From positions 62,001 to 126,000 of the forward strand of contig JAUIIL010000009.1 of NCBI GenBank assembly GCA_030431635.1: DNA of 64,000 bases, read 5' to 3'. This DNA comes from Bacteriovoracia bacterium. Lineage in GTDB: Bacteria; Bdellovibrionota; Bacteriovoracia; Bacteriovoracales; Bacteriovoracaceae. Each line of letters opens with the position of its first letter. The stretch's first letter is position 1. The translations under genes were made by a program, and so were the position numbers. Of the stretch, positions 32,852 through 49,041 are shown piece by piece. The notes beneath the pieces are model-generated. The model was not told the origin of the DNA. It searched no databases and was given only the letters and a program-made list of their open reading frames with translations.

Positions 32852-33754
32852 TTAAGAACATACAGCCTTTTTATTTTCTTTAAGAATTCCTAATATCGTA
32901 AAAAAGCAGCAAAGAAATATCCCCAAAGCTGATAAGTAGTTTAGCTGTAGTCTTTTATCAAAAAACTCCAAAAGAAAAGTTGTCGCTGGAGTCAGGGACA
33001 AAAGAAGAGAAACAAGAAGAGGTTCACTGTGTTTTATTCCATATTGAATTAAAAGCATGGGGAGCATTATTCCAATAACGGCAATTCCTATAATCGATGG
33101 CATTAAATGTAGGTCATGAAATGTATTTTCAATGGAAATATTATTAAAAAGAAGAAAGAGCAAAGAGGCCAGCGAGATAGCAATGAAGCGAGCACTCGTT
33201 ATTGAGAGTGTTGTGAGATTAGTTGAACTTAAACTTTTTGAAATATAAGTATTTAAAACCATTCCAAGTCCAGATAAAACAGCAAGCACAACTCCCAGAG
33301 TGACTTTAAACTTATCACTAACAATAAAGGCAGATTTCCCATCAATGGCGACGTATGAAAGAAAAATACAAGAGAGCACGACAAGTGTTGGATATAGTAT
33401 TTTTGTCTCTTTCTTTTTCAAGACAACTTTCTCAATAATTGCTGAAAAACCTGGCCCGATTGAAAATGAGATGGCCCCAACTATAGCGGGTTCTATATAT
33501 CTTAAGGAAACAAAGAAACTAAGCCAATTAAGTGCTGTAACAAGGTTAAGAAAAATTAAATTCCTTAACTGCGCTTTATAGTCCTGTACTTTGTTCTGCC
33601 TGAGACTCAAAGCTATCAAAGCGAGGAATATTGTTGCGATCGAAAAAGTTAAAAAAGCGACTAAAACTGGGTCATAGCTAGTAAATAAATTACCTAAGAA
33701 AACATCTTGAGCAGAGCCAATAAGGACAAATAATAAAACGGATAAGAATCCCAT
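32852..33754 (-). CDS. EamA/DMT-family transporter
   Basis: 300 residues with ten hydrophobic segments in two halves, DMT layout. It aligns by eye with the transporter at 43302-44147: both have NLVT-x-L-x-W near residue 70, RYIEPA/RYIPAS, SF/LGPGF-type glycines and SLLLSLTP/SLSP near residue 245. The two lie on either side of the 34007-43298 cluster in the same orientation. Substrate unknown; metabolite export is typical. It is divergent from the cluster's first gene across 252 bp. Confidence 0.8.
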   Translation of the reverse strand: MGFLSVLLFVLIGSAQDVFLGNLFTSYDPVLVAFLTFSIATIFLALIALSLRQNKVQDYKAQLRNLIFLNLVTALNWLSFFVSLRYIEPAIVGAISFSIGPGFSAIIEKVVLKKKETKILYPTLVVLSCIFLSYVAIDGKSAFIVSDKFKVTLGVVLAVLSGLGMVLNTYISKSLSSTNLTTLSITSARFIAISLASLLFLLFNNISIENTFHDLHLMPSIIGIAVIGIMLPMLLIQYGIKHSEPLLVSLLLSLTPATTFLLEFFDKRLQLNYLSALGIFLCCFFTILGILKENKKAVCS

Positions 33755-34006: not shown

Positions 34007-35206
34007 ATGGAAAATCAGGTTCGTCCCTGGAAGGGGAACCTAGGCAAGATGATCCAATTCTCAAAAAAGAATTGGGCTCTAATGCATGATAGTAGTCTAA
34101 TTTATTTAACAGCAAAAGCTAAAGGTCGTAAACTTGTTGAAGGTGAACACGAATTCATCAACATGGTTAGTTGTGATTATCTAGGCATATCATCTCTTGC
34201 GGTTGTAAATAATGAGATAAGACGGATTCTAGATGAAGATATGCCAGTTAATCTATCCGTTTCTTCGGTTAGAATACAGTCTTCGCTTTTGAAAGATGTT
34301 GAGAGTAGGTTTGAAAATCTTTATGATATTAAATGTTTAATAAGCTTAAGTGCATCTGAAGCATCGAGTGCATTATTACCACTTTTAGCATCTGGCTACT
34401 TCCATGATTTTGATAAACCTGTAATGGTGTTTGATAAACAAGCTCATTTTTCTCTTAAGTATATTGCTCCCATCTGTATGAATGAGACGTTAACTCTCGA
34501 AATTGATAAAGATAATATGCAAGCATTGGAAATAATTTGCAGAGAAAATGAAAATGTAGTGTATGTTACAGATTCAGTTTATTCTTTAGGTGGTGAAAGT
34601 GCTATTGATGCTATTATAGAACTTCAGAAAAAATATAATTTATATGTTGTATTTGATGAAGCTCATTCTACATCGATCTATGGAGATCATGGAGAAGGAT
34701 TGATTCGTCCAAAATATAAAGAATTTCCGAAAGAAACATTTATCATATCGTCTTTTAATAAAGCATTTGGTGCTGCTGGTGGTGCTATTTTTATGTCAAA
34801 GGAATATAACAAACATGAAATAAAAACTCTGGCTGGACCTTTAGGATGGTCACAATGCATTTCCAATCCTGTTTTAGCAGCAATAAAAGGTGCTCTTACT
34901 GTTCATGAAAGTGGGTATGTAAGAGAGTTGCAGGCTGAGCTTAGAAAAAAATTACAATTATTTGATGAAAAAATTAAAACAAAACAATCAGGTTCATTGG
35001 CACCAATTAGAATCATTCCAACCAAGAGCTTAGAAGATACAAAGAATAAGGCTAAATTTCTTTTTGAGAATGGTTATTATCTAGCGCCTGTATATTTCCC
35101 AATAGTTCCTAAAGATACATACGGAATGAGAGTAATGTTACGTGCGGATCTGCAAATTCAAGAAATTGATAAATTAATTTTATTATTAGGTGAGATAAAT
35201 GATTAG
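34007..35206 (+). CDS. PLP-dependent alpha-oxoamine synthase (BioF/KBL/CqsA fold)
   Basis: 399 residues, full length for the family. H147 (QAHFSL) would stack on the PLP ring, D217 and H220 in DEAHSTSIYG contact the cofactor, and K252 in SFNKAFGAAGGA is the Schiff-base lysine. Family members condense an amino acid (or S-adenosylmethionine) with an acyl-CoA to an alpha-aminoketone: BioF for biotin, KBL for threonine breakdown, CqsA for the CAI-1 autoinducer. Lack of biotin or threonine genes and the coupled lyase, dehydratase, transporter and sensor genes argue for a specialised product. AAGGAGATATT precedes the ATG. GGCC words are absent, unlike the neighbourhood. Confidence 0.85.
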   Translation: MENQVRPWKGNLGKMIQFSKKNWALMHDSSLIYLTAKAKGRKLVEGEHEFINMVSCDYLGISSLAVVNNEIRRILDEDMPVNLSVSSVRIQSSLLKDVESRFENLYDIKCLISLSASEASSALLPLLASGYFHDFDKPVMVFDKQAHFSLKYIAPICMNETLTLEIDKDNMQALEIICRENENVVYVTDSVYSLGGESAIDAIIELQKKYNLYVVFDEAHSTSIYGDHGEGLIRPKYKEFPKETFIISSFNKAFGAAGGAIFMSKEYNKHEIKTLAGPLGWSQCISNPVLAAIKGALTVHESGYVRELQAELRKKLQLFDEKIKTKQSGSLAPIRIIPTKSLEDTKNKAKFLFENGYYLAPVYFPIVPKDTYGMRVMLRADLQIQEIDKLILLLGEIND

Positions 35207-36011
35207 AAGCTTATTAAATACTCCAGCGGATCACGAGGGAATGCTTTTGAAAGCGATTGAAACAAATGCAGACGCTTTAATCTTTGATTTGGAAGATGGT
35301 GTTCAAATTGGAAATAAAGAAAATGCAAGGATTGGATTACGTAGGATATGGAATAAAGTTAAAATTAGAAAAAGAAATATATTTATCAGAATTAATGACG
35401 TTCATACTATCGAAGGGATAAAGGATATAAACTTCCTATTTGAAAATAACATAGAGCCTTGCTTTATCATTTTGCCAAAGGTTGAAAGTGGCATCGAAGT
35501 TCAATTAACTAGAAAATTATTTAAAAAATCAAAACTTTGTCCAATTATTGAAACTTCAAAAGGAGTTACTGAAGCGAAGTCGATAATAAACTCATTGAAC
35601 AAGGGTGAGTATCTAATATTCGGGGAAGCTGATCTTTCAAGTCAGTTAAGAATTTCTCTTTATTCGACTTTTATTAAAGAAATTAAAAGACAATTAGTGC
35701 TGCTAAGTAACGATGAAAATGTTGGCGTTATTGATTCTCCGTGCTTTAGGTTAAAGGATGAAAGTTTTTTAACACAGGAAGTTCAGCACAGCTATGACTT
35801 TGGATTTAGTTCTAAAATTGCAATTCACCCTTCTCATATATCAATCATTAATAAAGTTTTTTCTCCTAGATATGAGCTTTCATATGACGAGATTCAAATA
35901 TTAGAACAATACAAAGATGAGCATAGTGGTATTAAAGTGAACAATGGTGATATGGTCGGTCCACCTATGGTGAGAATGATTCGAGAAAAAGAGGAACAAC
36001 TTGAAAGATAA
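35199..36011 (+). CDS. CitE/HpcH-HpaI family carbon-carbon lyase
   Basis: 270 residues. RSLLNTPAD at the start, ALIFDLEDGVQIGNKENAR (metal/CoA region) near residue 28, FIRIND near 65, ILPKVES near 92, IETSKGV near 118 and the FGEADLSSQL segment near 145 follow the CitE/malyl-CoA lyase barrel. These enzymes make or split beta-hydroxyacyl-CoA-type esters from an acyl-CoA and glyoxylate, pyruvate or oxaloacetate. The ATG overlaps the synthase gene by 8 bases with AGGTGAG upstream. Together with the MaoC-like protein it could supply an unsaturated acyl-CoA for the oxoamine synthase (inferred). Confidence 0.8.
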   Translation: MIRSLLNTPADHEGMLLKAIETNADALIFDLEDGVQIGNKENARIGLRRIWNKVKIRKRNIFIRINDVHTIEGIKDINFLFENNIEPCFIILPKVESGIEVQLTRKLFKKSKLCPIIETSKGVTEAKSIINSLNKGEYLIFGEADLSSQLRISLYSTFIKEIKRQLVLLSNDENVGVIDSPCFRLKDESFLTQEVQHSYDFGFSSKIAIHPSHISIINKVFSPRYELSYDEIQILEQYKDEHSGIKVNNGDMVGPPMVRMIREKEEQLER

Positions 36012-36492
36012 AAAAATGTTCAAACAAATTGATGAAGATATCTATGAAGAAAATTTCGGTTTGCTTTATGGAGATTTTAAAGAAAAATGTATCATTAAAC
36101 ATTTTCCAGGAAGAACAATCACGGAAACAGATAATATGCTAATTAGCATGCTTGGGATGAATGTTCATCCAATACATATTGATTATGAGCACTCAAAAGG
36201 AAATGAATGGGGAAGGCCAATAGTTTCAAGTTTGGTGACAGTAGCCATTGTGGGAGGTTTGAGTTTACGAGGAACTAGTGCTCAAGGATTAATGAATCTT
36301 GGTTGGAAGAATATAGAATTACCTAATCCTGTTTTTATTGGTGACACTTTATATGCTCAATCAAAATGCATAAATAAAAGACTTTCGAAAAGCCGAGAGC
36401 ATGTTGGGATTGTGCAAATGGAAACAATCGCTAAAAATCAGAAAAATGAAGTTGTTATAAAGTGGGAGCGTACGTTTATGGTGAGGGTTTGA
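36001..36492 (+). CDS. MaoC-like (R)-hydratase/dehydratase
   Basis: 163 residues from TTG 36001, with GAGGAA upstream; an ATG at 36016 is the alternative. The hot-dog fold signature is FPGRTITETDNMLISMLG followed by MNVHPIHIDYEHSK (the catalytic Asp/His region of MaoC hydratases) and FIGDTLYAQSK near residue 115. The family hydrates or dehydrates CoA-bound enoyl/hydroxyacyl groups, including mesaconyl-CoA. It overlaps the lyase gene by 11 bases. The lyase plus hydratase pairing matches the logic of beta-methylmalyl-CoA chemistry. Cytoplasmic. Confidence 0.8.
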   Translation: MKDKKMFKQIDEDIYEENFGLLYGDFKEKCIIKHFPGRTITETDNMLISMLGMNVHPIHIDYEHSKGNEWGRPIVSSLVTVAIVGGLSLRGTSAQGLMNLGWKNIELPNPVFIGDTLYAQSKCINKRLSKSREHVGIVQMETIAKNQKNEVVIKWERTFMVRV

Positions 36493-37613
36493 TGAATAAA
36501 TATTTAGGCTTTTTATTACTTTTAGGATTAATCGTATTTTCAATTCTAGATAATGGACTTCCTGCATTTTTTGATGAACTTTCAAAAAATTTAGGCATTA
36601 ATAAAGGTATACTTGTAAACTTAATATCTACCTGCTCTTTTGGAATCGTAATTGGTTTATTGTTTTTTTCAGGCTCTATAAATAAGGCTAATTATGGTCT
36701 TTATTTAAAAATTGCTGTTTTACTAGGAGTTTTATCGGCAACACATGTCCTAAACTCATCATCTTATGAGCTTTATTTGTTAAGTCGTTTTTTTTTAGGC
36801 TTATTAATAGGTCTAATCAGTTCAATGGCATGGTGGTTTTCGTTTAACTTGTCAGGTAATTCTACAAGCTATGTTGTTTATATTATGACCGCTAGACCTT
36901 TATCAATTGCCTTAGGAGTGCCTCTTTTAACATTTTTTAAAGATTATATATACTGGGAATGGCTTTATATTGGGTTCTTAGGATTAGTAGTTTTATATTT
37001 ATTTATCCCTGTAAAAAAATCGGAAGAGGAAGTAAAAACTCATATTTGGGCTGTTTATAGAGAAATATTTTCTAATAAGAGCGCGTATTATTTTTATTTA
37101 ACTATATTAACAAATGCGATGGGCTATTTAGGTTTTTATGTAATTATTCCATTTTGGGAGAATATTGCGATAGAAAAACTTTTTCTCTTTTATGGATTAA
37201 CTGAAATCACAGGAACTCTCTTGTCAAAAAAGGCAATTTTTTCTAAACAATCGCCACTTTATATTTCTTTTGGAATATTAGTGTTAATGCCCTTGATCGT
37301 ATTTTTTGATATTCATGAGTACGTTAATATAGCGGCAATCGCGTTATATATATTTGCTGCAAGAGTTTATATTGTAAATGTAGCAAACACTATTCCTAGA
37401 ACTTTTTCTTATTTAAGCCGAAAAGATGGGCTTGGGACGTGTGGCTCTCTTATTGGAGTATTTGCCTGGTTAGGGTTAGGATTAATATCTTTCATAAGTT
37501 CTTTTTTTCTCGTTAATAAAAGCCTATCAATACTCTATATAATGCTTCTGGTTTTAAACTTAATATCAGTACTACTTTTTAAACTAAAACTTCAAAGGAT
37601 TTATTATGCTTGA
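36492..37613 (+). CDS. MFS transporter, candidate exporter
   Basis: 373 residues from ATG 36492; its A is the last base of the MaoC-gene stop (TGATG), with GAGGG upstream. Eleven or twelve hydrophobic helices with a central charged loop (near residue 178, KKSEEE) and an RFFLGLLIGL segment near residue 105 fit a major facilitator. Placement between biosynthetic and sensing genes suggests export of the cluster product. Direction and substrate are inferred. It overlaps the next gene by 8 bases. Confidence 0.75.
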   Translation: MNKYLGFLLLLGLIVFSILDNGLPAFFDELSKNLGINKGILVNLISTCSFGIVIGLLFFSGSINKANYGLYLKIAVLLGVLSATHVLNSSSYELYLLSRFFLGLLIGLISSMAWWFSFNLSGNSTSYVVYIMTARPLSIALGVPLLTFFKDYIYWEWLYIGFLGLVVLYLFIPVKKSEEEVKTHIWAVYREIFSNKSAYYFYLTILTNAMGYLGFYVIIPFWENIAIEKLFLFYGLTEITGTLLSKKAIFSKQSPLYISFGILVLMPLIVFFDIHEYVNIAAIALYIFAARVYIVNVANTIPRTFSYLSRKDGLGTCGSLIGVFAWLGLGLISFISSFFLVNKSLSILYIMLLVLNLISVLLFKLKLQRIYYA

Positions 37614-38343
37614 AATATTAAAAAATAATCAAATTTTCATCGGAGACAAAAGATTAGACCAATTGGTAAATGGAATGATTCAAGCAACCGAGGAGCAGAA
37701 GACTTATTACTTTGAAAGCTTAGATTCGGCAAAAATTGATGAAGTGGAAAGTGAAAGTCAAATGATAAAAAAAATATTTTTTACTTTTAATCAAAGAACT
37801 AACTTGAAGCCAGTTGTTACTTCCGATAAAGATAAGTATTATTGGTATGGATTGTATAAAAATAGCAACGTATGTAGTATTTTTCAAAAAGATGAAGAGT
37901 TAGAATATTTTGAGAATTACCGGTTATCAGATGTTGAAACAAGTTATTTAGAAGATATTTGGATTCATCAGTATTCTAAGTCAGCAGCACTAAATAAAAA
38001 ATCAAAAAAAATCAAAAAACAACTTATTGGAAGAATTAGTCGTTTCCAAAATTATAAGGACCATTTTATAGTAAAAAGAAATGGTATTATTGTTGCACAT
38101 ATGGCTTTTAAATATTTTTACTATCCCATGGCTGGGTGTGAGTGTAGTGCTATCCACCTATGGATTGATGAATCAGAGTCATCCCGCAAGTCTATTCATC
38201 AATTTTTCTCACAATTTGTGGATAAAGTACATTCTGTTACTCCAATGTTTTGCGGAGTTTCTTATGATAACGACAAAGCGTTAAGAAGTGCTATTAAATA
38301 TGGGTTTACTCCTTTTTTTCTAGAAATTAAAAAATATGAATAA
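37606..38343 (+). CDS. GNAT-fold-like protein of unknown activity
   Basis: 245 residues. The C-terminal half (about 145-245) has the GNAT order of strands: HFIVKRNGIIVAHMAFKYF, a CSAIHLWI strand, then a helix and VSYDNDKALRSAIKYGF, the usual end of acetyltransferases. The classic R/QxxGxG/A loop is not clear, so catalysis is uncertain. The N-terminal 140 residues are unrecognised. AAAGGA precedes the ATG. It may acylate the cluster product or a pathway intermediate. Overlaps both neighbours by 8 bases, so it belongs to the same unit. Confidence 0.55.
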   Translation: MLEILKNNQIFIGDKRLDQLVNGMIQATEEQKTYYFESLDSAKIDEVESESQMIKKIFFTFNQRTNLKPVVTSDKDKYYWYGLYKNSNVCSIFQKDEELEYFENYRLSDVETSYLEDIWIHQYSKSAALNKKSKKIKKQLIGRISRFQNYKDHFIVKRNGIIVAHMAFKYFYYPMAGCECSAIHLWIDESESSRKSIHQFFSQFVDKVHSVTPMFCGVSYDNDKALRSAIKYGFTPFFLEIKKYE

Positions 38344-39424
38344 ATTCTTCTTGTTAATCATTCTCATTCTAGATGTTCAAGCTAAGGATATTTTAGTTGG
38401 AATCCTATTAGGCTCAAAAAAGGATGGACTAAGAAAAACAAGCTACTCCCAAAAGTTTTATGATGCTGTTGAAATGGGATTTGAGCAAGCAAAGCATGAT
38501 TTAAAGAAGAAAAATATTTTGGTAAAGTTTAAAGTATATGAAATTGAAGAGGATCCTCTAGCTTCATATTACTCAGCTATGAAGGCCAAGAAGGATGGGG
38601 TTGATTTTTTAATCGGACCTTCAGTATCGTTCTACATCCCAGGTGTTGTGAAAGCCTTAGAAGGAACAGGTATAGTTGCTATAACTCCATATGCAAGCAC
38701 AATAAAGATAAAAGATAATCCTAATATCTATAATATTTCGAAACTCGATGACATTTTAACAAAGTATTTAGAAGAGTTTGTAAATAAGAAATTCAAAGGT
38801 AAAAAAAGAGTGTTGGTCTGTGCAAAAGATGTAGAGGTTTCTTATTCTGCATGTCACTCTTTTTCTGAGAATTTTATTAATGAATCTATTTCGATTTCTA
38901 CAGATTCAAATTTAACGAATATCGAAGAACTAGTTAAAAAAATTGTAAATTTAAAACCTGATATAGTGATCTCTCCAAATAGAATTCCAATAACAGGTTT
39001 TTTAATTAAGAAATTATTAGCAAAAAATTTTAAACCAGTATTTATTGGTAACTCTTCCTTGGGTGAAGTTTACGCCACTGGATTAGTGGAGTTAGTTGGG
39101 AGAAAAGACTTTGAAGCGTTCATGGTAAGAGAGTTTTCTTCCCATAACTTGAAGCAAAAAATGAAGTTTCCAGCTGTATTTGAGAAGTTGAATGAAGATT
39201 ATGGCAATCCGAGATTGACTAGCTTGCTTTTTTATGACGCAGCTGCATACTCAATGGAAGTATTATTAAAATCTGGTTCTGTAACAATGGATAGTTTAAG
39301 AAAAAACTATAATTTTGAATCCACTCTTTTTTCACAAAGAAATAAAAAAGATATCTATAATGTCGTTTATCTTAAAGATGGAGTCTATAGGCATTATAAA
39401 GAAGTTAGTTATGAAAATAAGTAG
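38336..39424 (+). CDS. Periplasmic binding protein, LIVBP-like (Peripla_BP_6 type)
   Basis: 362 residues with a short signal peptide (1-16, ending VQAK). DILVGILLGSKKDGL opens the first lobe; the FEQAKHDLKKK helix, FLIGPSVSFYIPGV (ligand-loop serines) and ITPYAS follow the branched-chain amino-acid-binding protein pattern. No ABC permease or ATPase gene is near. Instead the stop overlaps the sensor kinase gene by 14 bases, as with binding proteins that present a ligand to a kinase (LuxP with LuxQ, TorT with TorS). Likely periplasmic ligand receptor. Ligand unknown, possibly the cluster product. Confidence 0.8.
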   Translation: MNKFFLLIILILDVQAKDILVGILLGSKKDGLRKTSYSQKFYDAVEMGFEQAKHDLKKKNILVKFKVYEIEEDPLASYYSAMKAKKDGVDFLIGPSVSFYIPGVVKALEGTGIVAITPYASTIKIKDNPNIYNISKLDDILTKYLEEFVNKKFKGKKRVLVCAKDVEVSYSACHSFSENFINESISISTDSNLTNIEELVKKIVNLKPDIVISPNRIPITGFLIKKLLAKNFKPVFIGNSSLGEVYATGLVELVGRKDFEAFMVREFSSHNLKQKMKFPAVFEKLNEDYGNPRLTSLLFYDAAAYSMEVLLKSGSVTMDSLRKNYNFESTLFSQRNKKDIYNVVYLKDGVYRHYKEVSYENK

Positions 39425-41390
39425 TTTTATAAGAAGAACATTCAGAAATCTTACTTTAATTTATTTTGCAGTAAATTTGATCGTTCTATCTTTTTCTTTG
39501 TATCATTTTATATACTTAAATATCAAGATTATTTCTCAGGATGCTAGAGAGCTACTAAATAAAGAAAAATCTTATTTAATGTATAATTTTCTGAATGACT
39601 CAAATTCACCTGAGGCTCGAGATACAATAAATCGTATAAATCAAGATTTAAAAATTATTGAGATAAGTAAATTAAATAATCATACTCAATTTGAAATAGA
39701 TTTATTTGATCTTATACCTTATAAGTTGAGTTTTGCACAAGAAGAACTAGCAACCTTCTACTTTAACATTATTTATAAAAATTTAAACTATGGGCCTGTG
39801 GTTGCTATTTTATTAGCATATTTATTAGTAGCTTTTTTAATATATAGAATTGTTATTGTTAGATTGATAGATTACTTAAAAGAGAATATACAAAGTCCAC
39901 TAGATTCACTAGATATTTATTTTTCTAAACACTTAATGAATGAGAGTGTCGATTCATTTCCCGAAAGTTCTGGTTTTATTGAGCTAGATGCAAGTTTAAA
40001 GAATATCAAGACAGAGCTTTCTAATTACTACACAATTAAGAAAAATTACTTGCGTGATCAAGAAAAAGCATTGATCGGTAAGCTTGCTACGCAGGTTTCT
40101 CACGATATTCAATCTCCTCTTGCTACTCTAGATAGCCTTGTAGATTCATTAAATGGCGAACTTGATGATGATAGATTAACATTATTGAGGCTTTCAATAG
40201 ATAGAATAAAGACAATAACAATGGACTTAAAAGGTAAGACTGTTGAAGATGTATACCCATTAGACTTAGATTTAATTATTAGGAAATCTCTTAAGGAAAA
40301 GGGGTGGGAATTTAAAAATATTTCATTTGAATATAATGCATTAACCAAAGATTGCTTTTCTAAGGCTAGCAGTATTGAACTTAGGAGAATATTAAGCAAC
40401 ATTATAAATAATTCGATTGAAGCTTGTAGCATAGATAATCATTGGATAAAAATATCACTTTTTAATGATTCTAGATTTAATGTTATTGTTATTCAAGATA
40501 ATGGTCATGGAATTAAGGATTCTTCCTTATCTAAAATATTCGAAGAGGGGTACTCTACAAGAAAAGAGAACTCCGGTTTAGGGCTTAGTCATGCTAAAAA
40601 ATATATCGATTATTTAGGCGGGAAGATTAAAGTTGAATCAACATTAAATATAGGAACAACAATTACAATAAAACTGAAACGTGTAAAAAAACCTAGTTAC
40701 TTTACATCTACTGTCAAGTTAAAGAAGAATATTTATATAATTGATGATGATCCCAGTGTTCATAAATTATGGGCAAGTAAAATTTCAAGTTTTACATCAT
40801 TTGTCAAACCAGAAGATTTTCTAGCAGAACTACCCACTATCAATAAAAATAACTCAACTTTTATTGTGGATTATCATTTTTCGAATTCACATTTGACGGG
40901 TTTGGATATTGCTAAAAGATTAGAAGGGGGAAGTATTTACTTGCTAAGCAGTTCTTCGGAGTCAAAAGAACTTGTAAGCTATGCTAGTAAGAAACCTATA
41001 TTCTTAATGGATAAGTTGTATATTAATGATTTTTTGATTGATTTTGAACCCAATGAAAGTCTTTATGATCTTGTCCTAATAGACGATGATGATCTTTGTC
41101 GCTTGAGTTGGCAGGTCAAGGCAAAAAACTTAGGCAAAAATATTCTTCTGTGTAGAAACTATGATGAATTAAGGGAGAAAATCAATATTATTCCAAAAAA
41201 TATACCAATATTCTTAGATTCTCTTGAGAATGAGAGAGTCTCAGGTGATCTGATAACTAAAAAACTTTATGCAATGGGCTTTATCAATCTTTATTATGCG
41301 AGCGGATTTACTGATGAAGATTATAATTTCCCTGAAGTGATAAAAGGGAATGTAGGCAAGTCGTTTCCTGAATCATATATTATTTCTTAA
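39411..41390 (+). CDS. Hybrid histidine kinase with two receiver domains
   Basis: 659 residues from ATG 39411; earlier in-frame starts lie well inside the binding-protein gene. Membrane segments at about 14-38 and 128-150 enclose a periplasmic domain of about 90 residues. The dimerisation histidine is H231 in VSHDIQSPLATL. ATPase motifs: NIINNSIEA (N box, 330-338), QDNGHGIKD (362-370) and SGLGLSHAK (388-396). Receiver 1 has IIDDD (443-447), D487 and K535. Receiver 2 has LIDDDD (556-561), D603 and K650, and is shortened. The small periplasmic part suggests that it senses through the binding protein before it. No DNA-binding output domain is present. Confidence 0.9.
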   Translation: MKISSFIRRTFRNLTLIYFAVNLIVLSFSLYHFIYLNIKIISQDARELLNKEKSYLMYNFLNDSNSPEARDTINRINQDLKIIEISKLNNHTQFEIDLFDLIPYKLSFAQEELATFYFNIIYKNLNYGPVVAILLAYLLVAFLIYRIVIVRLIDYLKENIQSPLDSLDIYFSKHLMNESVDSFPESSGFIELDASLKNIKTELSNYYTIKKNYLRDQEKALIGKLATQVSHDIQSPLATLDSLVDSLNGELDDDRLTLLRLSIDRIKTITMDLKGKTVEDVYPLDLDLIIRKSLKEKGWEFKNISFEYNALTKDCFSKASSIELRRILSNIINNSIEACSIDNHWIKISLFNDSRFNVIVIQDNGHGIKDSSLSKIFEEGYSTRKENSGLGLSHAKKYIDYLGGKIKVESTLNIGTTITIKLKRVKKPSYFTSTVKLKKNIYIIDDDPSVHKLWASKISSFTSFVKPEDFLAELPTINKNNSTFIVDYHFSNSHLTGLDIAKRLEGGSIYLLSSSSESKELVSYASKKPIFLMDKLYINDFLIDFEPNESLYDLVLIDDDDLCRLSWQVKAKNLGKNILLCRNYDELREKINIIPKNIPIFLDSLENERVSGDLITKKLYAMGFINLYYASGFTDEDYNFPEVIKGNVGKSFPESYIIS

Positions 41391-41492
41391 TAAATCAGAG
41401 TGTATGAAGTTAGCATTGACATGAGTGATTATAAATTGAGTGCAACTAATTAATCTCTCTTATTGTAAAGAGAAAGCTCTGCTAATTATCAA

Positions 41493-42134
41493 TCATAACC
41501 CCGTAATAAAAGAATTCGCAGGATCTAACAAAATAGCATCAAGGCCGACCTTTTTTGCTCCTTCGACATGTTGAGGGGAGTCGTCAATGAATAGTGTCTT
41601 TCTTATATCAAGAGAGTTCTCTTTGATAACATATTCATAAGCAGCGGCATTTGGCTTTCTTTCTCCTATCTTGTGAGAAAAATAAATTCCATGAAACTCT
41701 TCATAGAATCCATTTAGCTGAGGCTTGCTTGCAATATAATCGTTTAGATAATTTTCGTGAATTTGATTGATATTACTCAACATGAAGACTTTTTTCTTTT
41801 TCTTTAATTCCTTAAGATAAAGGAGTCTTTCGACTCTAATTTCCTTAAGCATTGAGTTCCAAGCTTTTATAATGTCTTCATCATTTGAATTAATTTTCAA
41901 GAGTTCTTTTAGTTTTTTTATGAATTCTTCTTGAGAGATTTTCCCTATTTCTAAATCATTAAAAAACGAGACTTGATTCTTTTTATTATAAAAAGAAGAA
42001 GCATCAACTTCTCTTGATAGGGCCGTTAACTCTTTGATTGTATCTGAGTAATCAATATCGATAAAGATTCCTCCATAATCAAAGATGATATTATCTTTTC
42101 CTTCGATAAGTTTATTAAATTCTTCAGCTCTCAT
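41493..42134 (-). CDS. HAD-superfamily hydrolase, YihX-like
   Basis: 213 residues. Motif I reads IIFDYGGIFIDID with Gly in place of the second aspartate, as in YihX-type sugar phosphatases (FDLGNV); motif II is FMLSNIN, motif III lysine in KIGERKPN and motif IV FIDDSPQHVEGA. Likely a cytoplasmic phosphatase of a sugar or nucleotide phosphate. It starts inside the end of the nucleosidase gene (11-base overlap) with GGAAGG upstream, so the two are co-translated. It contains normal GGCC words, unlike the cluster on its right-hand transcription side. Confidence 0.8.
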   Translation of the reverse strand: MRAEEFNKLIEGKDNIIFDYGGIFIDIDYSDTIKELTALSREVDASSFYNKKNQVSFFNDLEIGKISQEEFIKKLKELLKINSNDEDIIKAWNSMLKEIRVERLLYLKELKKKKKVFMLSNINQIHENYLNDYIASKPQLNGFYEEFHGIYFSHKIGERKPNAAAYEYVIKENSLDIRKTLFIDDSPQHVEGAKKVGLDAILLDPANSFITGL

Positions 42135-42873
42135 TCTGGCCTTCCAAACTCTCTAGTAACTTTGCCGTTACTTTAGCAGCATTCTTAGAAGCTTTTTCTA
42201 AAAATAATTTGAAATCACTCTTAATTGTGCCATCTGGTAAGAGTCTGTCAGAGACTGTTTTGGCAATAATAAAGGGAACACCTACTTTATTGGCAACATA
42301 TCCAATGGCAGAAGCCTCCATATCAACCAGTGTTGCATCAGGGTGAAGTTTTGCTAAATCTTGTTTTCGTTCTGTAGTGCCTACAAACTCACTTCCAGAT
42401 AAGATTAAACCTGGAATCACTTCAAGCTTGTTTACGAAATCTAAATTTATATTTTTCTTTTTTGATTTGATTAGGGGGTCATGATTATTGTTATCTTCTT
42501 CGGTTAGTATGAGTTCTCCTGGATACATTCGACAGTCATCAAAATCGAGGCTTGATAAATAATCATGCTGAAGTACTGATTCGGAGATAATCATATCTCC
42601 AATTTTTAAGTCAGATCGTAATGCTCCACCAACTCCAATGAGTAATATCTGGTCAATATCTATTTGCTCTAAAACCATTGCGAGCCCAATACCCGCATTA
42701 ACGTTTCCCATTCCTGTTTCTTTGACGTAGATATCATGTTGGCCATACTGATACTTTAAGGCAGTTAAGTTAAATTTTTTCGATACAACAATCTCTTCTG
42801 CTTCACCTTTTAACTCACTTATCAAAGCATTTTTCTCTTCAGGTAGTGCGCACATGATTAGAATAGAACTCAC
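42124..42873 (-). CDS. mtnN: 5'-methylthioadenosine/S-adenosylhomocysteine nucleosidase-like
   Basis: 249 residues from GTG 42873 (GGAGG seven bases upstream), the usual length; a longer frame reaching 43038 lacks a ribosome site. ALPEEKNALISEL near the start, GMGNVNAGIGLA near 60, LIGVGGALRSDLKIGDMI near 83 and VDMEASAIG with catalytic-Asp SDRL later are the MtnN/Pfs signature. It hydrolyses methylthioadenosine and adenosylhomocysteine; a futalosine nucleosidase is an alternative. CqsA-type synthases using S-adenosylmethionine release methylthioadenosine, which makes the location near the oxoamine synthase suggestive, but the enzyme is also housekeeping. Confidence 0.85.
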   Translation of the reverse strand: MSSILIMCALPEEKNALISELKGEAEEIVVSKKFNLTALKYQYGQHDIYVKETGMGNVNAGIGLAMVLEQIDIDQILLIGVGGALRSDLKIGDMIISESVLQHDYLSSLDFDDCRMYPGELILTEEDNNNHDPLIKSKKKNINLDFVNKLEVIPGLILSGSEFVGTTERKQDLAKLHPDATLVDMEASAIGYVANKVGVPFIIAKTVSDRLLPDGTIKSDFKLFLEKASKNAAKVTAKLLESLEGQNES

Positions 42874-42995
42874 AATAGGTCCTCCATTAAAACAGTAACT
42901 TAAATCAAATAAATTATGACATAAAAGACTTTGAAAAAATAATAAATATGTATTATTTATATTAAACTGGGATTCATATGAGAAAGAATTTATAA

Positions 42996-43298
42996 ATGAA
43001 TATTTTAATAGATGATGATGAATTAATAAGAATGTCATGGGAGTTAATGGCTTCCAGGAAGGGAGATATTCTCAAGGCATACAGCTCAATTGAAGACTTT
43101 TTGAAAGAAAAAGAGATATATAATTCTGAAGTAAAAATTTATGTGGATTCATCTCTTGGGAACGGAGTTAAGGGAGAAGAGGAGTCAAAAAAAATATTTG
43201 ATGCTGGTTTTAAAAATATTTACCTTGCTTCAGGGTATGTTTTTGAGACTCTGCCTGAATGGATAATAGGACAAGTTGGGAAAGAGTATCCTCTTTAA
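42996..43298 (+). CDS. Orphan compact receiver-domain protein
   Basis: 100 residues, a single domain. IDDD at 5-8, D51 in VDSSLG, S79 in ASGY and K96 in VGKEYP match the receiver residues, with spacing shorter than in CheY. It aligns along its full length with receiver 2 of the kinase (IDDD-x-L-x-R-x-SW, KK-x3-x-GF-x-N-x-Y-x-ASG, VGK-x-P). It may accept phosphate from that kinase or compete with its receiver. It lies divergently from mtnN and no GGCC word occurs in it, like the 34007-41390 block. Confidence 0.75.
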   Translation: MNILIDDDELIRMSWELMASRKGDILKAYSSIEDFLKEKEIYNSEVKIYVDSSLGNGVKGEEESKKIFDAGFKNIYLASGYVFETLPEWIIGQVGKEYPL

Positions 43299-43301
43299 AA
43301 A

Positions 43302-44147
43302 TCACTTCTTCATAAAACTCACAACAAACAAAAAGTTTATGATGATAATGAGGCCTCTGGCGTCTAAAGTCTCAAAGCCTCTTACCACTTGAACGATATA
43401 AAGCATAAAGGGGGAGAGGGATAGCAGCAGAGAGGTCATTAATGGGTTATTCTTGCTAATTCCATAGGTTAAAAGCCATAGGGGAAGGGCAATTGCTAAG
43501 ATTGAGAAGAGAGAAAGGTAGAGGATTTTAGAGTCAAGAAAAGTAAATGATGGAGTTTGATTCAATAGAAAATATATAAGGCAAGAAAGGCCTAACAAAA
43601 TAAATCTCTTGCTCATTATTTCTTTGGCCGTGACACCTTTATTTGATTCGAGCTTAACCAAGATATTATTAATTGCTGTGAAGAAAGCGGCTAAGCTTAC
43701 ATAGAGAATACCTGTGAGTTTGATGTTAAAGCTTGTTTTTGAAATAATAAGAAAGGCAACTGTACTGAAGACTCCTATTGAGCAGATTAAATTTTTATAG
43801 TTTAAGTGATTTTCGTTTTTGGCAAAAATGTATTGCATGAGAAAGATAGTAAAGACAGGACCTAGGGAAAAGTTAAGCATGCTGTTAATAGAAGCAGGAA
43901 TATAGCGAAGGGCCATAAGATAGCAAAACCACATTAAAAATGTCACTAGGTTAATTTTCAAGGAGCTCTGTAAAGACATGTGACTACGAACTCTTGTGAT
44001 TTTACTTAAAAGAAGAAAGAGAGCTGTCGTAATGCTAAAACCAAGGCCAGCGACTAAGGCAAAGTGATAACGACCTAAGAACTCAGCAAAGAAGGAATCT
44101 CTGAGCGCAATTAAAAAAGTTGCCAGTAAAATAATGAATGCTTCCAT
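43302..44147 (-). CDS. EamA/DMT-family transporter
   Basis: 281 residues with ten hydrophobic helices. It is a paralogue of 32852-33754 (shared NLVTFLMW, RYIPAS, NFSLGPVF, SLLLSLSP positions). It ends three bases from the orphan receiver gene on the opposite strand. Inner-membrane metabolite exporter by family; substrate unknown. Confidence 0.8.
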   Translation of the reverse strand: MEAFIILLATFLIALRDSFFAEFLGRYHFALVAGLGFSITTALFLLLSKITRVRSHMSLQSSLKINLVTFLMWFCYLMALRYIPASINSMLNFSLGPVFTIFLMQYIFAKNENHLNYKNLICSIGVFSTVAFLIISKTSFNIKLTGILYVSLAAFFTAINNILVKLESNKGVTAKEIMSKRFILLGLSCLIYFLLNQTPSFTFLDSKILYLSLFSILAIALPLWLLTYGISKNNPLMTSLLLSLSPFMLYIVQVVRGFETLDARGLIIIINFLFVVSFMKK

Positions 44148-47711: not shown

Positions 47712-48803
47712 TTATTTATCCTTTTTGACATACTTGATAATAAGCTGTGGGTTTTCAACTTTTGTATCATCTGTAATCACAAAACTAGCACTACCAGAGT
47801 TCACAATCTGCTTAAGTTGAGTTTTATCTACTTTAAGAAGTTTTGTTAGGCTGATATAAGCATCTTTTCTAAAGTAAACTTTTTCAGTGGGACTCTTTCC
47901 TAATGAGATGATTCCAGCGAAATCAGAAGTCTCTACCAGTTGTATTTTCTCATCTGTCCAAAACTCTTGAGTTCTAATCATTTTGAAAAAACCAAGTAAG
48001 CCAGAGCGCTCTTTTAGAGGTGATCCTGAACATTTTCTCATATCAAGAGAGCAGAAGAGCTCAGTTCCTTTATTTCTCCAGAAAGTATATAAGTTGGCCT
48101 GTACAGCGACATCGAGGATTTCTAATTCATCCCAATTACCTGCTGGGATAGTAAAGTTGAAAACAACTTGATTATCTTTAGCGCAATCAAACCTCCTTAC
48201 TTTTTTACCACTAGGATCTTCAACCTTTTCACCACATTTTCTTCTTCCTTCATTGTGTGTAATAACGGGGTAACCACGAGCTAAGAAGAAGCCTTTTTGT
48301 CTATAAGGGAATGGCCCAAGGTTTTGAATATCAGAGTCACTTAACTCATTTGCATCATATCGTTTTGTCCACACTCTCTGAGCACTTGTTCCGTTCTGAC
48401 CATCGTTTCCATTTCCACCATCGTTTCCGTTTCCACCGTCGTTTCCATTTCCACCATCGTTTCCGTTTCCACCGTCGTTTCCGTTTCCACCGTCGTTTCC
48501 ATTTCCACCGTCGTTTCCATTTCCACCGTCGTTTCCATTTCCACCGTCGTTTCCATTTCCACCGTCGTTTCCATTTCCACCGTCATTTCCGTTTCCACCG
48601 TCATTTCCGTTTTGACCGTCGTTTCCATTTCCACCATCGTTTCCGTTATTATCACCCGGCTCTTCCGTATCAAGTGGGTCAGAATCGTTTTCGATGACGC
48701 TTTCAAAATCACCTTCAACAAGGGAGTCTAGCGTTGGGTTATCACCACAAGAGGTTAAGGCCAATAAAAAAAGAGTCATTAAAAAGAGTGTGAGTGTTTT
48801 CAT
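47712..48803 (-). CDS. Lipoprotein with GNDGGN tandem repeats
   Basis: 363 residues from ATG 48803 (AAGG five bases upstream); an in-frame ATG at 48827 lacks a site. Signal peptide ends in the lipobox LTSC near residue 22, so it is lipid-anchored. A linker of fourteen GND[GQ]-type hexapeptides (GNDGGN, two with Q) follows, then a folded domain of about 220 residues with two cysteines pairs (RKCGE, LFCSLDMRKC). The flexible acidic repeat may act as a spacer. Co-transcribed with the OmpA protein. Confidence 0.75.
   Translation of the reverse strand: MKTLTLFLMTLFLLALTSCGDNPTLDSLVEGDFESVIENDSDPLDTEEPGDNNGNDGGNGNDGQNGNDGGNGNDGGNGNDGGNGNDGGNGNDGGNGNDGGNGNDGGNGNDGGNGNDGGNGNDGGNGNDGGNGNDGQNGTSAQRVWTKRYDANELSDSDIQNLGPFPYRQKGFFLARGYPVITHNEGRRKCGEKVEDPSGKKVRRFDCAKDNQVVFNFTIPAGNWDELEILDVAVQANLYTFWRNKGTELFCSLDMRKCSGSPLKERSGLLGFFKMIRTQEFWTDEKIQLVETSDFAGIISLGKSPTEKVYFRKDAYISLTKLLKVDKTQLKQIVNSGSASFVITDDTKVENPQLIIKYVKKDK
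48393..48644. repeat. Fourteen-copy 18-bp in-frame tandem repeat
   Basis: 252 bp of 18-bp units coding for GNDGGN (two units GNDGQN) on the minus strand. Units differ mainly at third positions (CCATCG/CCGTCG/CCGTCA). Copy number can change without a frameshift. The apparent frames on the other strand (His/Arg/Phe-rich) are artefacts of the repeat. Confidence 0.95.
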
Positions 48804-49041
48804 AAGTACCTTGAAACATCCTTTCATTCATAAAAAAATAGAATAGATATATATTTTTAATATACTAAGCCGCACAATCATTGCACAGGTCAGTGCAGCA
48901 ATATAATAGTGCTCCTCTAGCTAGATTCCAAGCCTCACTGAAGAGTTTTCAAAGACGTGTTTAATTTTTAGACGAAGTGAAAAGAACACCCGTTCACTAG
49001 TAAAGCGTATAACTCTTAAACACTCACGAAAAGACTACAGG

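Follow-up and report, generated by a model that had tools for sequence, protein, structure and literature searches.

A 64,000-nucleotide stretch of the genome of a Bacteriovoracia bacterium (contig JAUIIL010000009.1; hereafter, the window) holds a tightly packed unit of seven genes, for which an original prediction, made from the sequence alone, had proposed a joint role in the making, export and sensing of a small molecule. The seven plus-strand open reading frames (ORFs) extend over 34007-41390, and the ORF list confirmed both their positions and their overlaps, which span 1-14 bases if the transporter and kinase genes start at 36492 and 39411, respectively. Pfam and NCBIfam families were assigned to six of the seven: an alpha-oxoamine synthase (AOS; 34007-35206; PF00155), a carbon–carbon lyase/aldolase of the HpcH/HpaI-CitE type (35199-36011; PF03328), a MaoC-type dehydratase/hydratase (36001-36492, with TTG at 36001 or ATG at 36016 as start; PF01575), an MFS transporter presumed to be an exporter (36492-37613 from its ATG, with a longer GTG ORF from 36462; PF07690), a secreted LIVBP-family binding protein (38336-39424; Peripla_BP_6, PF13458) and a membrane histidine kinase (39411-41390). 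These identities agree with those first proposed, whereas the 'GNAT-like' label given to the remaining gene (ORF5; 37606-38343; 245 amino acids) was not confirmed: ORF5 had no Pfam or NCBIfam family, no PDB-profile match below 0.88 and no hhalign match to two neighbouring acetyltransferase-like proteins, and its AlphaFold model was of low confidence, with a predicted local distance difference test (pLDDT) score of 41. Catalytic residues are intact in all three enzymes, namely the pyridoxal phosphate (PLP) lysine K252 together with H147, D217, H220 and R375 in the AOS, R64, E118 and D145 (invariant with relatives) in the lyase, and D39, N49 and H54 (numbered from 36016, also invariant) in the dehydratase.

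Profile comparisons placed the AOS in a PRK07505/KtmB/Alb29 clade. The only named model that it passed was NF005697 (PRK07505; 376.6 bits, cutoff 342); scores against the BioF, KBL and ALAS equivalog models (108.8, 84.3 and 51.4 bits, respectively) were all far under the cutoffs, and the CqsA-type autoinducer synthase model NF005526 gave 78.7 bits (cutoff 428). The nearest solved AOS structure was 8xha (236 bits), identified as Alb29 (PMC11906848), with CqsA at approximately 46 bits. The AOS thus falls outside all four of the families against which it had been suggested that it be compared, and we rejected both a BioF/KBL identity and the proposed analogy to CqsA and its CAI-1 product; with that analogy, the accompanying link to methylthioadenosine and a nearby nucleosidase also loses its support. 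For the lyase and dehydratase, the best named models were RipC and RipB (168.8 and 146.6 bits, respectively), as would suit a primary metabolic or catabolic unit in which a RipBC-like pathway for the breakdown of itaconate or a C5 acid is accompanied by its regulator and by an AOS of the BioF/KBL kind. However, both scores are far under the respective cutoffs (375 and 340), the unit has no coenzyme A (CoA) transferase and the AOS is over the PRK07505 cutoff rather than those of BioF and KBL; we consider this explanation very improbable.

A closer counterpart for the enzyme trio is found among the ketomemicin (ktm) clusters, which comprise six genes, encoding an aldolase, a PLP-dependent C-acyltransferase, a dehydratase, an ATP-grasp ligase, an amidinotransferase and a dehydrogenase (PMC11943689). 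As in the window, an AOS of the same (KtmB-type) clade is adjacent to an HpcH aldolase and a MaoC gene in these clusters, the window lyase and dehydratase being KtmA-like and KtmC-like in this comparison; unlike in these clusters, the ligase, amidinotransferase and dehydrogenase are absent from the window unit (and from its relative described below), with the MFS, ORF5, binding protein and kinase genes in their place. The KtmB-type assignment was made via PRK07505 and a ktm-like locus from the family of Micromonospora (L181). At that locus, each of the six ktm gene classes is represented (ATP-grasp ligase, Zn-dehydrogenase, HpcH aldolase, AOS, MaoC and amidinotransferase), its AOS likewise passes PRK07505, and its AOS, aldolase and MaoC proteins are 36%, 29% and 47% identical, respectively, to those of the window. 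More broadly, trio-type neighbourhoods (an AOS and a CitE-type gene, usually with MaoC) were found at tens of loci in the Myxococcota, Pseudomonadota, Acidobacteriota and Actinomycetota, with Zn-dehydrogenases, ornithine-cyclodeaminase-like proteins and MFS proteins as further partners (ORFs in the GC-rich loci were called with weighting by third-codon-position GC content, GC3); very large ORFs near some of these trios may be non-ribosomal peptide synthetase-like. Of the two AOS copies on one Holophagales contig, one adjoins CitE and MaoC genes. A tree of AOS proteins placed that of the window and its one relative in the phylum among trio-type AOS, including that of L181, with modest support (82/70), and Alb29 in a separate subclade.

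Given this match to a ketomemicin-type core that is found in four other phyla, the enzyme part of the unit is of a known kind, and the window trio is best read as a carbonylmethylene-forming core minus the ligase, amidinotransferase and reductase of the ketomemicins. In the most likely chemistry, the lyase and dehydratase would feed the AOS: malonyl-CoA or a different acyl-CoA would be joined to an alpha-keto acid by the CitE-type enzyme, and dehydration by the MaoC enzyme would yield an unsaturated acyl-CoA, which the AOS would condense with an amino acid, with loss of CO2. The product is likely to be an alpha-aminoketone or a carbonylmethylene pseudodipeptide, in which the double bond may persist, as the unit lacks a reductase gene. 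ORF5 may modify this product; in the described AOS pseudopeptide pathway for dynaplanin, an adjacent GNAT protein has been proposed to add an acyl group (PMC9239090).

To what extent the seven genes belong together can be judged from a second occurrence. Among 291 genomes of the phylum searched with the AOS, one further member (39% identical) was recovered, in a genome of another family (G179), where the surrounding contig (L089) encodes AOS, CitE, MaoC, MFS, ORF5, binding protein and kinase in the same order and on the same strand, most of them overlapping. Identities between the two units over aligned pairs were low (AOS, 37%; binding protein, 28%; kinase, 28%; MFS, 27%; ORF5, 22%; by tblastn, CitE, 36%, MaoC, 46% and MFS, 28%), and the retention of gene order at such divergence is strong evidence for joint function or joint transfer. 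We conclude that the seven genes almost certainly represent one functional unit. An MTA/SAH nucleosidase had also been noted near the seven genes, and a PNP_UDP_1 gene is indeed present (passing TIGR01704 and missing PRK05584), but it lies on the minus strand, and L089 has no nucleosidase, HAD or receiver gene downstream and a kinase without receivers; the nucleosidase and an orphan receiver gene near it therefore lie outside the conserved unit. The GC content of the window unit is lower than that of the window as a whole (30.7% versus 35.4%), and its AOS had no counterpart in the other genomes of its order (129 genomes searched), which together fit a horizontal gain. Single-sequence scans for close relatives found none, and a promoter and terminator scan performed no better than shuffles.

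The putative sensor consists of the binding protein and the kinase, the latter with two transmembrane segments (by eye), a phospho-acceptor H231 (numbered from the ATG at 39411), a HATPase_c domain and two C-terminal domains that resemble receivers. The binding protein profile is nearest to branched-chain amino acid binding proteins (4gnr, 7e-50), with no LuxP among its PDB matches, and the predicted model was of poor quality (pLDDT 47). Neither the two C-terminal kinase domains nor the orphan (42996-43298, plus strand) was recognised as a receiver by Pfam, even singly. Nevertheless, the likeness between orphan and kinase that had been pointed out at the start is borne out by the similarity of the orphan to the last kinase domain (32%, 2e-12); the orphan also resembles the C terminus of a related kinase in the phylum (L141), and, on inspection by eye, the kinase tail domains and the orphan retain an acidic patch, Asp and Lys. 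On the basis of this mutual likeness and these kept residues, we regard all three as divergent receiver-like domains, the orphan, absent from L089, being a possible output partner.

A broader context for this sensor was provided by a profile search for sensor-type binding proteins over 369 genomes of the phylum, which recovered approximately 25 such proteins (E below 1e-77) before ordinary LivJ proteins; the gap between the two groups arises partly by construction, the profile having been made in part from the same sequences, and seven loci outside the profile also lay above this gap. Besides the two AOS loci, 13 loci with a sensor-type binding protein and kinase carry enzyme genes, with EamA as exporter at nine of these and LysE at one. 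Most numerous is a radical SAM type (a short radical SAM protein at ten loci, nine also with EamA and most also with a sigma54 response regulator), in which the radical SAM protein is fused to the binding protein at L141 and to the exporter at L149, the latter locus also having a PLP decarboxylase. A third combination of maker and exporter is found at L152:1096-5686, where flavin adenine dinucleotide (FAD) monooxygenase, LysE exporter, binding protein and kinase genes are tightly packed; elsewhere, the pair occurs with an alpha/beta hydrolase (L142), immediately 3' of a phytochelatin-synthase-like protein gene (L160:6039-9236) or without any enzyme- or lipocalin-type gene (L166). Genes of these operons mostly abut or overlap by a few bases. 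The window unit fits the pattern: the kinase gene comes directly after that of a sensor-type binding protein, and the operon of overlapping genes that holds both also encodes an enzyme and an exporter. It shares with the radical SAM operons (radical SAM, EamA, binding protein and kinase, in part with NtrC) a homologous binding protein and kinase, and the receiver-like tail recurs in the L141 kinase, although a short radical SAM protein there takes the place of the trio as maker, and EamA that of the MFS protein as exporter.

The placement of the binding protein and kinase with an enzyme and an exporter, as first proposed, was thus found repeatedly across this family. In the binding protein tree, the window and L089 proteins paired with strong support (99/96) and maker types clustered, consistent with sensor and maker staying together. 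Because enzyme, exporter, binding protein and kinase recur together with three unrelated exporter families (EamA, LysE and MFS), the arrangement would be hard to explain if the sensor were unrelated to the enzyme product, and the recurring operons favour a make–export–sense cassette with interchangeable makers. LivHMGF genes are not beside the binding protein in the window or L089, in contrast to L153 and L157-L159. In the trio loci of other phyla that were searched, the window MFS, ORF5 and binding protein were not found beside the enzymes, and the sensor-type binding protein was not found in six trio genomes, in plasmids, in viral contigs or, at E<=1e-70, in 189 genomes of the myxobacterial phylum (all these searches without a positive control). 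Four operons of the radical SAM type (L144, L145, L148 and L150) and one of the lipocalin type (L156) adjoin a shared gene cluster of conjugation type, of which the L148 member is a TraC/VirB4-type conjugation ATPase and the members at other loci were assigned by clustering; there, the sensor and sigma54 regulator stand beside conjugation-type genes as if controlling the transfer of an integrated element.

In the proposed circuit, the product would probably be exported by the MFS protein, the LIVBP-type protein would bind it in the periplasm and set the kinase, and the signal would pass from the kinase to its own divergent receivers and perhaps also to the orphan at 42996. That the binding protein and kinase sense the product of their own cassette seems to us an even prospect, and our confidence is likewise balanced for the cassette as a whole, in which a small molecule would be made, exported and sensed in a self-contained manner.

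The chief rival is that the trio makes a ketomethylene pseudopeptide inhibitor, which the MFS protein secretes, and that the binding protein and kinase sense an outside cue (for example, amino acids of prey or neighbours) and switch production on, such that the ligand is not the product. LIVBP-type proteins bind mostly amino acids, in keeping with the profile match reported above, so that the ligand may be foreign to the cassette; ketomemicins are protease inhibitory and arphamenines are aminopeptidase B inhibitors (PMC11943689), and dynaplanin is a metabolic inhibitor (PMC9239090). Related binding protein–kinase pairs without any exporter also occur in the phylum, including nine loci (L154-L156, L161-L165 and L167) with a small Lipocalin_5 protein and mostly a sigma54 regulator. 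Several further observations weigh against a self-sensed signal: this version of the AOS is carried by only two genomes of the phylum, the window proteins form long branches in the AOS and binding protein trees (2.38 and 2.33, respectively), and no clear orthologous sigma54 regulator was found in the genome of the window and none in G179. By itself, however, a foreign cue leaves unexplained why enzymes of several unrelated kinds and exporters of three families are found with the sensor pair, and we regard it as a possible but less than probable account. A further alternative, suggested by the exporter and sensor sharing one tightly packed unit, is self-immunity or feedback, in which sensing of the exported product would serve solely to adjust its synthesis or export and would have no role between cells. 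The extra receiver-like kinase domains, the nearby orphan receiver and the sigma54 regulators of relatives, some of them beside conjugation-type genes, instead point to wider targets, and this alternative appears improbable.

Returning to the make–export–sense cassette, its parts have precedents among described systems. In CqsA–CqsS and LqsA–LqsS alpha-hydroxyketone signalling, an AOS-family synthase is coupled to a sensor kinase, but the AOS is of another family, and the window unit adds a binding protein, further enzymes and an exporter. LuxP–LuxQ similarly pairs a binding protein with a membrane hybrid-type kinase, although, besides the missing LuxP match, the window kinase scored 46.5 bits against a LuxQ model cutoff of 1200. 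DynZ of the dynaplanin pathway, for which homology to KtmB has been described, acts together with a GNAT protein encoded nearby (PMC9239090), a likeness by description rather than by sequence. With neither Alb29, from the albogrisin pathway, nor DynZ–DynY have a lyase and dehydratase or a binding protein–kinase pair been described in the literature covered. Thus, as a maker, the trio is a variant ketomemicin core, AOS-made signals and receptors composed of a binding protein and kinase are already known, and no tested family matches fully. The original prediction that the gene set is undescribed does not hold for the AOS, aldolase and dehydratase, which form the published core, but stands, as far as searched, for the coupling of this trio to export, a binding protein and a kinase, which is the new part; operons joining this sensor pair to enzymes and exporters were also not found described in the literature searched, with subscription papers outside its coverage.

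There is, in our view, a fair chance that a new class of signalling cassettes is represented by this operon family. A more specific and more tentative possibility, held with somewhat less than even confidence, is a modular family for cell-to-cell signalling in which one homologous detector (LIVBP-type protein and kinase) is retained while makers (AOS trio, radical SAM, FAD monooxygenase and decarboxylase) and exporters (MFS, EamA and LysE) are swapped, the window signal being a carbonylmethylene aminoketone and the radical SAM version controlling conjugation. No described self-made signal of this kind was found for the phylum in the literature searched, and the existence of sister cassettes with the shared detector but different makers and pumps points to an entire, seemingly undescribed family of such signals. 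Described pseudopeptide AOS pathways, as far as covered, yield inhibitors rather than parts of sensing circuits. If the cassette functions as proposed, the signal enzymes and receptor occur in one DNA stretch, making signal, detector and targets directly testable, the swapped makers would offer several new signal chemistries at once, and the AOS, aldolase and dehydratase trios would gain a role beyond inhibitor clusters.

Other genes of the window lie around the unit. On each side of the module lies a minus-strand EamA transporter gene (32852-33754 and 43302-44147), the two sharing 30% identity; the upstream one had no relative at E<=1e-30 among the 124 other genomes of the family searched. 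Farther downstream, a minus-strand ORF (47712-48827) combines a signal-like N terminus with a long GGNGNDGGNGNDG repeat.

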